From Gammaproteobacteria bacterium (GTDB taxonomy: Bacteria; Pseudomonadota; Gammaproteobacteria; Ga0077536), in assembly GCA_030429865.1 (NCBI GenBank), contig JAUIFX010000011.1, forward strand, positions 1-43,635: a stretch of 43,635 nucleotides of DNA, written 5' to 3'. Under the pieces are notes generated by a model. That model saw nothing but the letters and a program-made list of their open reading frames with translations. It made no database searches and had not been told where the DNA came from. The translations under genes and the position numbers were made by a program. The number at the start of each line of letters is the position of its first letter. Position 1 is the first letter of the stretch. Below, piece after piece: positions 5,987 to 10,420 of this stretch.

Positions 5987-6895
5987 ATGAACCACCCGCT
6001 ACCCGCCCTCGGCCTGGCTGCCGTCCCGGGCCGCCGTCGCCGCACGCTGGAACTCGCGCTGGAGATCGAGCAACGCGGCTTCTCGGGCATTTATTGCCCG
6101 AGCTTCGGCGACGGCCTGGCGCTGTGCGAAGCGCTCGCTTTCACCACCCAGCGGATCGCTTTCGGTACCAGCATCCAGCCCATCTACTACCGCCAGCCGG
6201 AGGATTACGCGCAGACGGTCAGTTTAATCCACGAACTCGCCCCCGGCCGCTTCCGCTTCGGTATCGGGGTCGCCCACGAACCGTCGCTGGCGGCGCGCGG
6301 CATCACCGCCGGTCGCCCGCTCGCCGATACCCGCAGCTTCGTCGAGCGCCTGCGCGCCGCCCCCCGCGCCGGCGAGCAGCCGCCGCTGGTGCTGGCCGCC
6401 CTGCGCCGGCGCATGATCGGCCTCGCGGCGGAAATCGCCGACGGCCTGGTGTTCGCCAATGCCGCGCGCAGCCACATGGCGTTTTCCCTGCACGCGCTGG
6501 CGGAAGCCGGCGGCACCCGCACCGATTTTTTCGTCGGCAACATGATCCCGACGTGCGTGTCTGACGATCTCGAGGCCGCACGCGCCGTCAATCGCAAGAC
6601 GTTGTCGTCCTATGCGCTGCTGCCGAATTACCGCAACTACTGGCGTGAAGCCGGCTACGGCGACGAAATGGATGCGGTCGAGCGCTGCATCGCCGAGAAC
6701 GCCCCCGAACGCATCGGCGCCTGCCTGTCGGACCAGTGGCTAGACGACACCACCATCGCCGGTCCGCCGTCGCGCGTGCGCGAGGAACTCGCGCGCTGGT
6801 ACGAAGCCGGCGTGACGACCCCCATCCTGGTACCGAGTTCGGTCGCCGGTGGCCAGTTCGAAGCGTTCGCCGAACTGTTCGGAGTCTTCGCATGA
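5987..6895 (+). CDS. LLM-class (luciferase-like) flavin/F420-dependent oxidoreductase
   Basis: 302 aa TIM-barrel protein of the bacterial luciferase-like superfamily. Visible features are the early segment with GFSGIYCPSFGDG, the QRIAFGTSIQPIYYRQP strand, the FRFGIGVAHEP segment (about residue 85) and a C-terminal GPPSRVREELARWYEAGV motif typical of F420/FMN LLM enzymes. Substrate and cofactor (FMN or F420) cannot be decided. Its stop overlaps the start of the MlaC-like gene (ATGA at 6892), so the two are translationally coupled, an unusual pairing. A TATAAA box at about 5950 may be its -10 element. Confidence 0.85.
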   Translation: MNHPLPALGLAAVPGRRRRTLELALEIEQRGFSGIYCPSFGDGLALCEALAFTTQRIAFGTSIQPIYYRQPEDYAQTVSLIHELAPGRFRFGIGVAHEPSLAARGITAGRPLADTRSFVERLRAAPRAGEQPPLVLAALRRRMIGLAAEIADGLVFANAARSHMAFSLHALAEAGGTRTDFFVGNMIPTCVSDDLEAARAVNRKTLSSYALLPNYRNYWREAGYGDEMDAVERCIAENAPERIGACLSDQWLDDTTIAGPPSRVREELARWYEAGVTTPILVPSSVAGGQFEAFAELFGVFA

Positions 6896-7530
6896 GGACC
6901 TGGCGACATCCGGCCTGGCACGTTCGGCGAGCACTCCTGCGTGCCTGCGCGGTCGCGATTCTGTTACCGGGCGTGGCCGCCGCGGCGGCCACGGCGGGCG
7001 AGCGCGAACCACTCGAGGTCGTGCGCGAACACGTCGGCACCGCCATTGCGGTGCTGCAGGATCCGTCGTACCGCGAGCGCAACGACGCGCAGCGCGAACG
7101 ACTGTGCGCCATCGCCCACCAGTTGTTCGACATCGAGACCTTCTCGCGGCTCGTACTGATGGCGCGCTGGAAGGAACTCGATCGTGCCGGGCAGGCGGAG
7201 TTCGTCAATGTCTTCGGCGATTTCCTGTGTCGCTACTATCTCTCGCGCCTGCAGCTCTATTACGGCAACGAACAGGTCGATTTCACCGGCCAGGAAATCA
7301 AGTCGGACACCCGCGCGACAGTTCGCGCCAGCGTTTCCTGGCAAGGGCTCGATATCCCGGTCGAAATACGCATGAGCCATCGTGATGGGCGCTGGCGCGC
7401 GTTCGACGTCGTCGTCAGCGGCATCAGCGCCGTGCTCGTCTACCGCGCGCAGTTCCAGCCCCGCCTGCTGGACATCTCCCCGCGAGAGCTGATCGACGAA
7501 CTGCGCGAACGCATCGCCGAGCAAGGCTGA
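6892..7530 (+). CDS. MlaC/Ttg2D-like periplasmic phospholipid-binding protein
   Basis: 212 aa with an N-terminal signal peptide (Arg-rich start, hydrophobic core, cleavage probably near AAA-ATAG at about residue 35). The mature part follows the MlaC pattern: LFDIETFSRLVL, RWKELDRAGQAEFVNVFGDFL, a Tyr-rich helix, and near the end DVVVSGISAVLVYRAQF matching the family's DVxxxGxSxVxxYRxQF. MlaC proteins shuttle phospholipid between outer-membrane MlaA and the inner-membrane MlaFEDB transporter. None of the other mla genes is here, so this is an orphan or paralogue. It overlaps the LLM gene by four bases. Confidence 0.85.
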   Translation: MRTWRHPAWHVRRALLRACAVAILLPGVAAAAATAGEREPLEVVREHVGTAIAVLQDPSYRERNDAQRERLCAIAHQLFDIETFSRLVLMARWKELDRAGQAEFVNVFGDFLCRYYLSRLQLYYGNEQVDFTGQEIKSDTRATVRASVSWQGLDIPVEIRMSHRDGRWRAFDVVVSGISAVLVYRAQFQPRLLDISPRELIDELRERIAEQG

Positions 7531-7622: not shown

Positions 7623-7815
7623 GGGACAGGCATAAATTCGAGACCGGCAGGCATGCCGCGTTTTGGGACAGGCACGAATTCGCGGCGTGCCGTGTTTTGG
7701 GCCAGGCATAAATTCGAGACGGGCAGGCATGCCGCGTTTTGGTGCCGCGTTTTGGGACAGACACGAATTCGCGGCGGGCCGACATGATTCAGGACAGGCA
7801 TCGATTCGCCCGGCT
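7623..7815 (+). repeat. RAYT-associated repeat array, left side (GGACAGGC units)
   Basis: Five units start with GGGACAGGCA or a close variant at 7623, 7665, 7699, 7754 and 7791. Two unit types alternate. Type A (42 bases, 7623 and 7699) continues TAAATTCGAGAC and contains GGCATGCC. Type B (about 34-38 bases, 7665 and 7754) continues CGAATTCG; at 7665 it folds by GGCACG pairing with CGTGCC. Most units end in GCCGYGTTTT. A 13-base partial duplication lies at about 7738-7750. The core is the reverse complement of the core in the right-hand array (9390-9586), with the transposase gene between them. Units vary too much for CRISPR. Confidence 0.8.
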
Positions 7816-8160
7816 GCGCCACTTGCGGGACTGCGAACTAGTTTCGCGGAGTTGCATGGAATCCAGTTGACGGCAACCCGATCGAGACTGAATTGGTCCA
7901 GGCGCGATTGTGCTGAAACTGCTCCGGACCTGGCCGCAGACATCGACCCCGTGACCTCGCGATGCAGCACAAGCCGCGGCAACTGCCGCTTCCCACTGCC
8001 CCGGGGTGGATACGCTTCTGGAAGGCGCACGCTGCCTGCGGACGCTCGGTGACGCGGCTCCGTGGCGCGCACGGTAGTGCGACCGCTGCCGGCACCCCCT
8101 CAAAGAGCCATGGTGTCGTAACCGCGCTCCGGAAACGCTCGCCTGCTCAGCTGCTCGGAC
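7816..8160. other. Non-coding stretch between left array and transposase
   Basis: I see no credible gene here. Reading frames are short, lack ribosome sites and match no family I recognise. It is probably part of, or decayed sequence around, the RAYT island. Confidence 0.5.
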
Positions 8161-9213
8161 TCATTCGCTCCCGTGCCGCGACGCGATAGACCGGCTACCG
8201 AGCCGGCCTGAAGCATCTCGGCGCCGCGGAAAAACGGATACCGTCCCCATCCCGTGCACCCATGTCCGGCCGAGACGTGCGGCATGTCGCCGCAGGTGGT
8301 CGCGCGATCCTATCGCGGGGTACCCCGACCTCACGCTCGCGCGCATACTTGACATCCAAATCTCAGCGTCAAGGCCCAGGGACGTGAGCAGACGCGAATC
8401 GCCACCCGAAATCGTGCCTCGCTTGCCAGGGATACAGCAACGGCCAGTCTTGTCGACAAGGTCGAGATAGTCGGTATGGCTGAAGGGTAGGACATCGGTA
8501 TCAGGGACCCGCGATCTCTCGCGCAGCGCTGCAAGCGTTGGGAACGTGGTGTCTGCCTGGGGACGATCGTGTGGTCGGCGCGCCATTAATCGCTGCTGGG
8601 CCGCAGTGTAGCTGCTATCACCGATCGTTGTGGCCATCCCGGCGCGAACGGGGTTGAGATCGACGTAGACCATCACCTGCAACAAGGCACCCTCGTCGAG
8701 CAGGGCCTGGGACTTGAAGCGGGCCTCCCAGAAATGTCCCGTCACGCCGTCCTCGGCGTTCGCTCTTCGGGCGATATACTCGTTCAAGCACCGCATGTAC
8801 CAGGACAGGTCGCCAAGGCGCTCACGCCACACCGCGACTGCTGACCGCACATGACGAAGTTCGTCAAACGTCAGCGTATCGCCTCTGCGATACCGGGCGA
8901 CGAGTGGCGGCTCGGAAAACAAGCGCGTCCAGCGGGTGATGACTTCTTCGTCGCTCCACCCCGCCACTTGTTCGGGGCGCAGGCGCACGACGAGGTGATA
9001 GTGGTTGCTCATCACCGCGTAGGCGCACAACTCGATAGCAAAGACCCGCGATAACACGGCCAGGCGCTCGCGCACCCATCTGCGACGATGCCCATACGAG
9101 CGGCCGGATGCGCTGTCGACCCCGCATAAGAAGGCACGGCGAACGCAACGCGCCATGCAATGGTAGTACGGTGTGCTCTCGATGCTGACGAGCGTCTTGC
9201 GAGGCTGAGTCAT
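8161..9213 (-). CDS. REP-associated tyrosine transposase (RAYT, Y1_Tnp)
   Basis: 350 aa HUH/Y1 transposase of the long RAYT type. The HUH motif is HYH (71-73, in MSNHYHLVV). The segment LSWYMRCLNEYIARRAN (about 136-152), then GHFWEARFKSQALLDE and YVDLNPVRAGM (183-193), are family hallmarks, as is the later SHTDYLDLVDKTGR block. RAYTs cut single-stranded REP-like hairpins, and inverted arrays of related hairpin repeats lie on both sides here. The expected family end is near WVHGMG (about 318-323). The last 25-30 residues are Arg-rich and run through a GGGGACGGTATCCG motif, so they may be element-end sequence rather than protein. The frame is intact, so the gene may be active. Confidence 0.9.
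   Translation of the reverse strand: MTQPRKTLVSIESTPYYHCMARCVRRAFLCGVDSASGRSYGHRRRWVRERLAVLSRVFAIELCAYAVMSNHYHLVVRLRPEQVAGWSDEEVITRWTRLFSEPPLVARYRRGDTLTFDELRHVRSAVAVWRERLGDLSWYMRCLNEYIARRANAEDGVTGHFWEARFKSQALLDEGALLQVMVYVDLNPVRAGMATTIGDSSYTAAQQRLMARRPHDRPQADTTFPTLAALRERSRVPDTDVLPFSHTDYLDLVDKTGRCCIPGKRGTISGGDSRLLTSLGLDAEIWMSSMRASVRSGYPAIGSRDHLRRHAARLGRTWVHGMGTVSVFPRRRDASGRLGSRSIASRHGSE
8235..8248 (-). repeat. GGGGACGGTATCCG motif at the transposase 3' end
   Basis: On the minus strand this motif is followed by TTTTTCC, inside the last codons of the transposase gene. It resembles the GGGGAC-type sequences that often border RAYT genes and may mark the downstream end of the original element. Single copy in the window. 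Confidence 0.35.
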
Positions 9214-9389
9214 CCTTGACCTCCCCGAATTGTTCGATAGGTCGCCACTCCGGGCGCGGTAGTTACTCTAGCCGCATGTCATCCATCGTTTCAACGTCCA
9301 CCTCTTGCGGACCGCGCGCCAACTGCCGCAGGCCGGTCTCGTCTGAAGAAGCAGGCCATCGGCGATGATTCTTCATCTCTCGCTCAGCT
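9214..9389. other. Upstream region of the transposase gene
   Basis: No established gene. A 37-codon minus-strand frame (9263-9376) starts with ATG after GCGAGAG and has an acidic C-terminus, but I do not recognise it and rate it as chance or a remnant. The transposase promoter is presumably here. Confidence 0.4.
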
Positions 9390-9586
9390 GCCTGTCCATG
9401 ATTGACGGTCTGCCTGTCCACAATCGGCACTCGTCCCTGCAGAGATTGATGCCTGTCCTCCAATGCCGCTCCTGCAGAGATTGATGCCTGTCCTCCAATG
9501 CCGCTCCCTGCAGAGATTGATGCCTGTCCAGGATTGATGCTGCAGAGATTGATGCCTGTCCTCCAATGCCGCGCTCCAATGCCGCG
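9390..9586 (-). repeat. RAYT-associated repeat array, right side (GCCTGTCC units)
   Basis: Six GCCTGTCC cores lie at 9390, 9412, 9451, 9486, 9522 and 9554. The last four sit in near-identical tandem units beginning CTGCAGAGATTGATGCCTGT at 9437, 9472, 9508 and 9540 (spacing 35, 36 and 32 bases), three of them continuing CCTCCAATGCCGC. On the minus strand the core is GGACAGGCATCAAT, which matches the left array core GGACAGGCATAAAT, so the arrays face each other across the transposase gene. CTGCAG and neighbouring short palindromes are present but hairpins are weaker than on the left. Confidence 0.8.
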
Positions 9587-9658
9587 GCGGGCAGAGCGCT
9601 GGCCGCTGGCCCGTGTGGCTGCCATGATGGCGCATCGAGGTTTCTGGGAGAGGTTCGA

Positions 9659-10420
9659 ATGTCCGGGTTCGGTCGCACCGCCATTGTGACTGGCGGCTCG
9701 CGCGGTATCGGCCGCGCGATCGCGCTGGCGCTTGCCGCTGAGGGCTTCGACGTAGCGCTGAGCTACGTCACGGACGCGAAGGCCGCCGCGGACGTGGTGA
9801 CGGCGATCGAGGCGCAGGGCCGTCGCGGGCTTGCCGTGCGGGCCGACCTGGGCACGCCGGGGGATGCCGCGGCGCTGGCCGAGGCCACCGAGACGGCGTT
9901 CGGCCGGATCGACGTGCTGGTCAACAATGCGGGCCTGTCCTCCAACGAGAGTTACATCGCCGATATGCCGCCCGAGACCTGGACCCGCATCATCGACGTC
10001 AACCTGCATGGCACCTATCACATGGTGCGCGCGGTCACGCCGCTGATGCGGGCATGCGGCAGGGGACACATCGTCAATCTGTCTTCCAACGTCACCCAGC
10101 GCATGCCCGCGACGTTCGGTGCCTATACCGTCTCCAAAGCCGCGGTCGAAGCGCTGACCCGCATCCTCGCCAAGGAGGAGGGGCCGCACGGCATCCACGT
10201 CAACGCCGTCGCCCCGGGACCGATCATGACCGACATGCTCGAGGGCCTGCTCGAGACCATGGGCGAGGCGCGCGCACGAGCCTTCATCGAGTCTGTGCCG
10301 TTGCGCCGTGCGGGGCAGCCGGAGGAGATCGCGGCGGTCGTCGCCATGCTGGTCTCGCCGACCGCGAGCTTCATTTCCGGGGAGGTAATCTATGTCAATG
10401 GCGGCGGGCCGGGCGGCTGA
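9659..10420 (+). CDS. SDR-family oxidoreductase (FabG-like)
   Basis: 253 aa classical short-chain dehydrogenase/reductase. It has the cofactor motif TGGSRGIG (11-18), NNAG (89-92), Asn115, the catalytic pair Tyr156/Lys160 in YTVSK with Ser143, and PGPIMTDM after the active site. It probably reduces or oxidises a hydroxy/keto group with NAD(P)H; the substrate is unknown. The ATG at 9659 has a GGGAGAGG ribosome site seven bases upstream. The longer frame upstream enters the repeat array and is rejected. A hairpin follows the gene, so it is probably monocistronic. Confidence 0.9.
   Translation: MSGFGRTAIVTGGSRGIGRAIALALAAEGFDVALSYVTDAKAAADVVTAIEAQGRRGLAVRADLGTPGDAAALAEATETAFGRIDVLVNNAGLSSNESYIADMPPETWTRIIDVNLHGTYHMVRAVTPLMRACGRGHIVNLSSNVTQRMPATFGAYTVSKAAVEALTRILAKEEGPHGIHVNAVAPGPIMTDMLEGLLETMGEARARAFIESVPLRRAGQPEEIAAVVAMLVSPTASFISGEVIYVNGGGPGG

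Follow-up and report, generated by a model that had tools for sequence, protein, structure and literature searches.

Transposases of TnpA-Y1 subclass 2.3 are defined by their length (median 325 aa), a conserved 55-aa insertion, and a C-terminal domain, and REP-like sequences were found for them neither by automatic nor by manual searches (Quentin et al. 2018, PMC6006769). TIRtrons consist of a Y1 transposase (TIRYT) located between inverted repeats (TIRs) that are unrelated to GTAG REPs; some TIRs share the sequence GGGGWSAS, and some also recur at other sites, singly, as dimers, or in groups (Di Nocera et al. 2013, PMC3733652). Twenty of the 26 published TIRYTs belong to subclass 2.1 (Quentin et al., PMC6006769). 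In E. coli TnpA_REP, the region around β4 contacts the GTAG motif (PMC8266576; PMC6006769). For subclass 2.3, the open-licence literature yielded no paper on the core, the arrays, or the residue-core link described below.

The locus analysed here lies in a stretch of 43,635 nucleotides (contig JAUIFX010000011.1 of assembly GCA_030429865.1; hereafter, the window) from a gammaproteobacterium of the GTDB lineage Ga0077536. Its gene probably encodes a single-strand-DNA HUH/Y1 transposase of subclass 2.3, a long type of enzyme that has been little studied, and the GGACA-NN-CAY cores facing the gene from both sides would be the end sequences that the enzyme recognises; the probability of this reading is estimated at about 0.72. 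A subclass described as being without recognisable flanking repeats has them, in a fixed arrangement.

The transposase gene and its flanking arrays

The window protein has no match in Pfam, PF01797 included, and it reaches the NCBIfam model REP_Tyr_transpos (REP-associated tyrosine transposase) only below threshold, with 45.1 bits against a cut-off of 80. A sequence search among solved structures revealed no relative of the protein. Its AlphaFold2 model is confident (mean pLDDT 87.7), and the best solved structure identified by Foldseek is 4ER8 (E 2.5e-3, probability 1.00), i.e., the E. coli REP-associated tyrosine transposase TnpA_REP bound to a REP hairpin. Because of the sub-threshold NCBIfam match and the Foldseek result, the protein is considered a RAYT relative; the earlier note, which had read an intact RAYT-like Y1 transposase from the open reading frame, is borne out in this respect (Table 1). 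In the model, a strand (residues 71-78) is followed by extra helices (80-133), a long helix (136-155), and a domain located after residue 200. N70, H71, H73, and Y183 are invariant in an alignment of 67 homologs, and Tyr183 is predicted to be the catalytic tyrosine by likeness to TnpA_REP. The homologs are mostly 315-358 aa long, and the window protein fits subclass 2.3 by its anatomy (length, insertion, and C-terminal domain).

Units of the GGACAGGCA type flank the gene, five on the plus strand to its left and six on the minus strand to its right, and all of them point toward it. When up to two mismatches are allowed, GGACAGGCAYNAAT has 11 matches in the window, compared with 0.86 expected from shuffles and a highest shuffle value of 3; moreover, Tandem Repeats Finder picks up both arrays. 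Beyond the 10-nt core, flank identity reaches 0.96-1.0 within a side and averages 0.34 across sides, which agrees with the earlier description of inverted arrays that have one core and separately derived units. At the positions usually occupied by innermost cores, an intact core is absent on both sides. The left unit GCCGCG-TTTTGGGACAGGCACGAATT-CGCGGC folds into a hairpin that is stronger than the weak hairpin seen family-wide. No Rfam family was detected at the window locus. An origin of the repeats by chance or as a simple microsatellite is excluded by the shuffles and by the family-wide orientation of the core.

Table 1. Features of the window locus and of the solo arrays of the same genome (positions in the window unless a locus is named)
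Feature	Position	Strand	Remarks
MlaC-domain protein gene	6736-7530	+	neighbour of the transposase gene
Downstream (left) array, five inward-facing cores	7624..7801	+	units of about 34-42 bp
Core starts of the left array	7624, 7666, 7700 (GGCCAGGCA), 7755 (GGACAGACA), 7792	+	
AGACATCGA, possible remnant of the innermost downstream core	7938..7946	+	about 220 bp after the stop, position as in homologs; weak
HUH/Y1 transposase ORF, 350 aa, TnpA-Y1 subclass 2.3 type	8161..9213	-	intact ORF, NHYH, Tyr183
Tyr183 codon, predicted catalytic tyrosine	8665..8667	-	Y-V-x-L-N-P-x-R; invariant in 67 homologs
His160 codon, proposed core-dinucleotide specificity residue	8734..8736	-	G-[H/R]-F-W-E motif
N70-H71-Y72-H73, HUH metal-binding motif	8995..9006	-	N70, H71, and H73 invariant in 67 homologs
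GGACGTTGA, possible remnant of the innermost upstream core	9291..9299	-	86 bp before the ATG, position as in homologs; weak
Upstream (right) array, six inward-facing cores	9389..9561	-	unit of about 35 bp
Cores of the right array	9389-9397, 9411-9419, 9450-9458, 9485-9493, 9521-9529, 9553-9561	-	
SDR oxidoreductase gene	9566-10420	+	neighbour on the other side of the transposase gene
Solo array, contig C52	L019:6000-6354		10 GGACANNCA cores on one strand
Solo array, contig C74	L020:5960-6277		9 GGACANNCA cores on one strand
Solo array, contig C112	L021:5683-5837		4 GGACANNCA cores on one strand

Inward-facing cores and residue 160 in the transposase family

Homologs were compared in two samples, with several of the genomes being draft MAGs. 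The first sample included 80 homologs plus a further 19 from the family to which the source organism belongs; 98 intact genes were counted, and L128 and L086 (broken or short frames) were excluded. The second, broader sample comprised 50 loci whose proteins are mostly 42-68% identical to those of the first set; one of these loci (L139) is identical to a first-sample locus and was excluded from the pooled count. The core word was picked after k-mer inspection of the first set, in which GGACA-NN-CA is common to most loci (NN being GG, CC, TC, CG, GC, etc.); this choice does not bear on orientation, spacing, agreement at the free positions, or the second sample.

Within 600 bp of the 98 intact genes, 298 copies of GGACANNCA face inward and 14 outward; the gene bodies contain five. 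The innermost core is mostly located 70-110 bp before the start on the upstream side and 180-220 bp after the stop on the downstream side. In the second sample, 94 cores face inward and 10 outward. Inward-facing cores are the rule in the family of the window transposase: related arrays adjoin homologous transposases in relatives, a point that the earlier note had proposed for checking, and its claim that such an arrangement is uncommon is not supported for this transposase. GGACANNCA is missing upstream of 18 and downstream of 32 of the 98 homologs, and therefore either other cores exist or cores have been lost. Arrays are not general to Y1 genes in the window genome, since neither of its two other Y1 genes has a GGACANNCA cluster beside it. 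These two genes, L227 (contig C282) and L228 (C243), are shorter and PF01797 transposase-like, with ORFs of 239 and 247 aa, respectively.

The dinucleotide NN is identical on both sides of the gene at 37 of 55 loci, whereas 10,000 shuffles gave 15.5 on average and 26 at most. It also varies with residue 160 of the transposase. In the model, this residue is located in the loop that joins the long helix (136-155) to strand 167-171, ahead of β4, in the region corresponding to the GTAG contacts of TnpA_REP. In the first sample, H160 is present at all 19 GG loci and R160 at 52 of the 56 CC/TC loci; in the second sample alone, GG is found at no R160 locus. When the samples are pooled, GG occurs in 0 of the 271 copies that belong to R160 enzymes (92 loci with a core) and in 80 of the 111 copies that belong to H160 enzymes (at 26 of 33 loci). 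This covariation, which extends over approx. 130 related copies, suggests that the enzyme recognises these repeats. Residue 160 itself would read the NN bases, His calling mostly for GG and Arg never for GG. The comparison yields a concrete candidate for the specificity residue, and the question of the enzyme's substrate becomes testable by oligonucleotides and one point mutation. The family would also provide a natural case of the end sequence and the specificity of the enzyme having switched together several times.

The code is not a single-residue one, given the exceptions among H160 loci: four that have K158 carry CC and account for four of the seven H loci lacking GG, and others carry GA, GT, or GC/CC. 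Residue 158 may modify the code. The combination of K158 and H160 with CC rather than GG is seen at L087, L096, L099 (Aeromonas), and L097. At L164 and L169, Tyr replaces the otherwise invariant Trp162, and the core dinucleotide is CA in all eight flanking copies; this is possibly a further specificity switch. Genome G018, the assembly of which is 92% complete, contains solo CC arrays of 28, 6, and 4 copies, and the sole transposase found in it is of the H160/GG type. The largest of these arrays (L192:3228-4065, contig C44) has its 28 GGACACCCA cores on one strand and no transposase nearby.

Element ends, array growth, and alternative readings

Five elements that are 88-95% identical to one another are present in the genome of Salinisphaera sp. 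G21_0. Their shared sequence starts approx. 8 bp beyond the innermost core on the upstream side (AATAAA-GGACAYCCA) and stops shortly beyond the innermost downstream core; the outer flanks and the arrays beyond the shared part are unrelated. The same kind of start is found in Alcanivorax (L025, L030, L033, L076) and Thioalkalivibrio (L023, L028, L029), and mobile units in other hosts measure approx. 1.3 kb from core to core. Near-identical elements at different loci of one genome share sequence only in the core-to-core interval; the cores therefore delimit the mobile unit. No empty site was found from which the exact ends could be read, and the second element of the window genome, on contig C138, occupies the same place in a sister species (G001).

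On the upstream side, two of the five G21_0 elements have a single core and the others have arrays. The upstream array units of L045 repeat the local outside flank together with the core (AGCTAATAAA), and downstream units also repeat local flank and core, e.g., at L034 (TTTTTATCTTTC) and L089 (TTGCTATT). Family-wide, unit-flank identity amounts to 0.59 for units of one side, 0.33 for units of opposite sides, and 0.30 for units of different loci, and same-side identity exceeds opposite-side identity at 47 of 52 loci. Outward array units are locus-specific, and therefore the left and right arrays differ; two unlike unit families on the left and right are the outcome expected of local growth from each end, which shows the origin of arrays with one core and different units beside a mobile gene. 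Outside the upstream end, L028 and L042 contain apparent fragments of another transposase gene, and at L048 the left end of the element itself seems to be partly repeated; these flanks suggest nested or one-ended insertions.

Covariation of the core flanks is confined to a single register (-6..-3 with +11..+14); adjacent registers give no signal. With one unit per locus, 1.70 of 4 flank pairs are formed, a value reached by 1 of 5,000 shuffles; the signal is weak when set against the 1.33 pairs of the shuffles (1.3-1.4 expected). Each core would occupy the loop of a weak hairpin built from its own flanks. Extra copies would accrete outside the ends, either by cutting and rejoining by the enzyme near the core or by replication slippage, and the local flank would be copied into each new unit, so that the left and right arrays come to differ and the core remains the same. 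TnpA cleavage may drive the growth of the arrays.

The window genome (4.6 Mb) contains 19 exact GGACANNCAYNAAT sites in four clusters and no site of the reversed pattern. The four clusters are the window locus and three transposase-free arrays (L019, L020, and L021), near which no related transposase was found within the 10-12 kb examined. Cores of the three solo arrays are mostly GG, matching the window enzyme (H160); the core alone, and not the units, is common to the solo and window arrays. The second transposase of this genome (contig C138) has R160, and its upstream cores are CC/TC. In G001, the window element is found at the same site, with GGACAGGCA kept and all spacers replaced, and its transposase is represented only by a fragment at a contig end. 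L020, L021, and the C138 element are likewise at the same places in G001, with cores kept and spacers new; no counterpart of L019 was found in this sister species. The shared sites imply that the window, C138, L020, and L021 sites are old, and the comparison with G001 gives no sign of a recent spread of repeats from the window locus. The window copy is sedentary; because it has no intact cores at the usual innermost positions, we think that it no longer moves. In the earlier note, the locus had been put forward as a possible source from which repeats spread. Its expectation that the core recurs elsewhere in the genome is confirmed by the count of sites; a source role is not shown. The solo arrays share only the core, neither the left nor the right array type is dispersed as such, and L020 and L021, which have different spacers in the sister species, are old. 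In another genome (G009, contig C14), a C-terminal transposase fragment lies beside small GG clusters, with a 12-core array further along (L191:1-8000); this is possibly a decaying element.

The link between residue 160 and NN might reflect shared ancestry rather than recognition, and GG loci do cluster in one part of the tree. However, among 12 phylogenetically independent H/R pairs, eight are as predicted, four are ties, and none is reversed (sign test on the eight non-tied pairs, 1/256, one-sided); residue and core switch together in all five hand-picked sister contrasts, and the column of His160 separates GG from CC/TC loci best, with no other protein column scoring as high. Ancestry is a highly improbable explanation in the face of these contrasts. 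It has also been considered that the cores are operator sites, i.e., that the transposase or another protein binds the promoter-side core and controls transcription, with the arrays being regulatory clusters. A -35-like box (TTGAC-like) is indeed located 13-17 nt after the innermost upstream core at 27 of 75 loci, compared with 1 of 59 downstream cores, but the inverted downstream cores, the core-limited elements, and the strand-uniform solo arrays that lack a transposase are left unexplained, and operators are unlikely to be the whole answer. A role of the core in regulation could exist alongside its role at the ends and is possible.

More weight, though well short of an even chance, is given to a passive origin of the arrays, in which the neighbourhood of ordinary terminal repeats is multiplied by replication slippage and the transposase is not involved in growth. 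The units repeat adjoining host flank and core in tandem, some repeat the flank alone (iterations of CTGACTTCG at L043), and slippage produces arrays of this kind. Against this reading, the solo arrays remain strand-uniform, their cores are retained in the sister species although the spacers differ, and the core flanks covary; together, these features suggest that the cores are under selection or are continually re-supplied. The least probable of the readings is a REPtron, namely, a RAYT whose REP/REPIN repeats spread from the window locus. The RAYT-related fold, the sub-threshold NCBIfam match, the inverted repeats on both sides, and the further copies elsewhere speak for it; yet GTAG/GTGG-footed GC-rich hairpins are absent, the genome has its few clustered exact sites rather than hundreds, the hairpin arms enclose the conserved word instead of carrying it at their foot, and units are unshared among clusters. 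GTAG does not occur in the window arrays, and GTGG occurs once, in a single right-hand unit, unshared. The absence of GTAG-footed palindromes from the arrays largely refutes this reading, and strictly speaking the locus is no REP system. The preferred reading, i.e., that the cores are end sequences recognised by the transposase, may be tentatively generalised: subclass 2.3 enzymes would read the central dinucleotide of their ends by a residue 160 code (modified by residues 158 and 162) and would both build and maintain tandem arrays of these ends beside the gene and, in trans, strand-uniform solo arrays that stay at fixed sites with spacers turning over continually. This wider proposal is held with somewhat less than even confidence.

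Comparison with known systems

The window locus resembles the E. coli REPtron (4ER8; PMC8266576) in the HUH/Y1 fold, the inverted repeats beside the gene, and putative recognition by the β4 region. However, the E. coli protein has 165 aa, compared with 350 aa here, and its system is characterised by GTAG at the hairpin foot and hundreds of dispersed REPs, neither of which is found at the present locus. With the IS200/IS605 family (IS608, ISDra2), the locus shares the expected single-strand Y1 chemistry and, in some hosts, a mobile unit. IS200/IS605 transposases are much shorter (approx. 130-155 aa), tnpB is absent here, and the ends of these elements are subterminal hairpins without terminal inverted repeats, in contrast to the inverted cores described above.

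The likeness to TIRtrons is that inverted repeats without relation to GTAG REPs lie on both sides of a RAYT-like Y1 gene. The motif GGGGWSAS of some TIRs overlaps part of the core; window units contain TGGGACAG or AGGACAG, a partial match, and some solo-array units contain GGGGACAG. Unlike most published TIRYTs, the present loci are of subclass 2.3; their core is GGACA-NN-CAY, their tandem arrays have locus-specific units, and the core covaries with a transposase residue. They would work like TIRtrons and belong to subclass 2.3 by anatomy. This assignment is based on the length of the window protein, its HUH and Y1 motifs, and the extra helices and C-terminal domain of the model. Whereas subclass 2.3 as published is without REP-like repeats, most members examined here have inverted, inward-facing cores, often in arrays, and some copies have definable element ends. 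The inward-facing cores, which are not classical REPs, correct the published description of subclass 2.3 and not the assignment to it.
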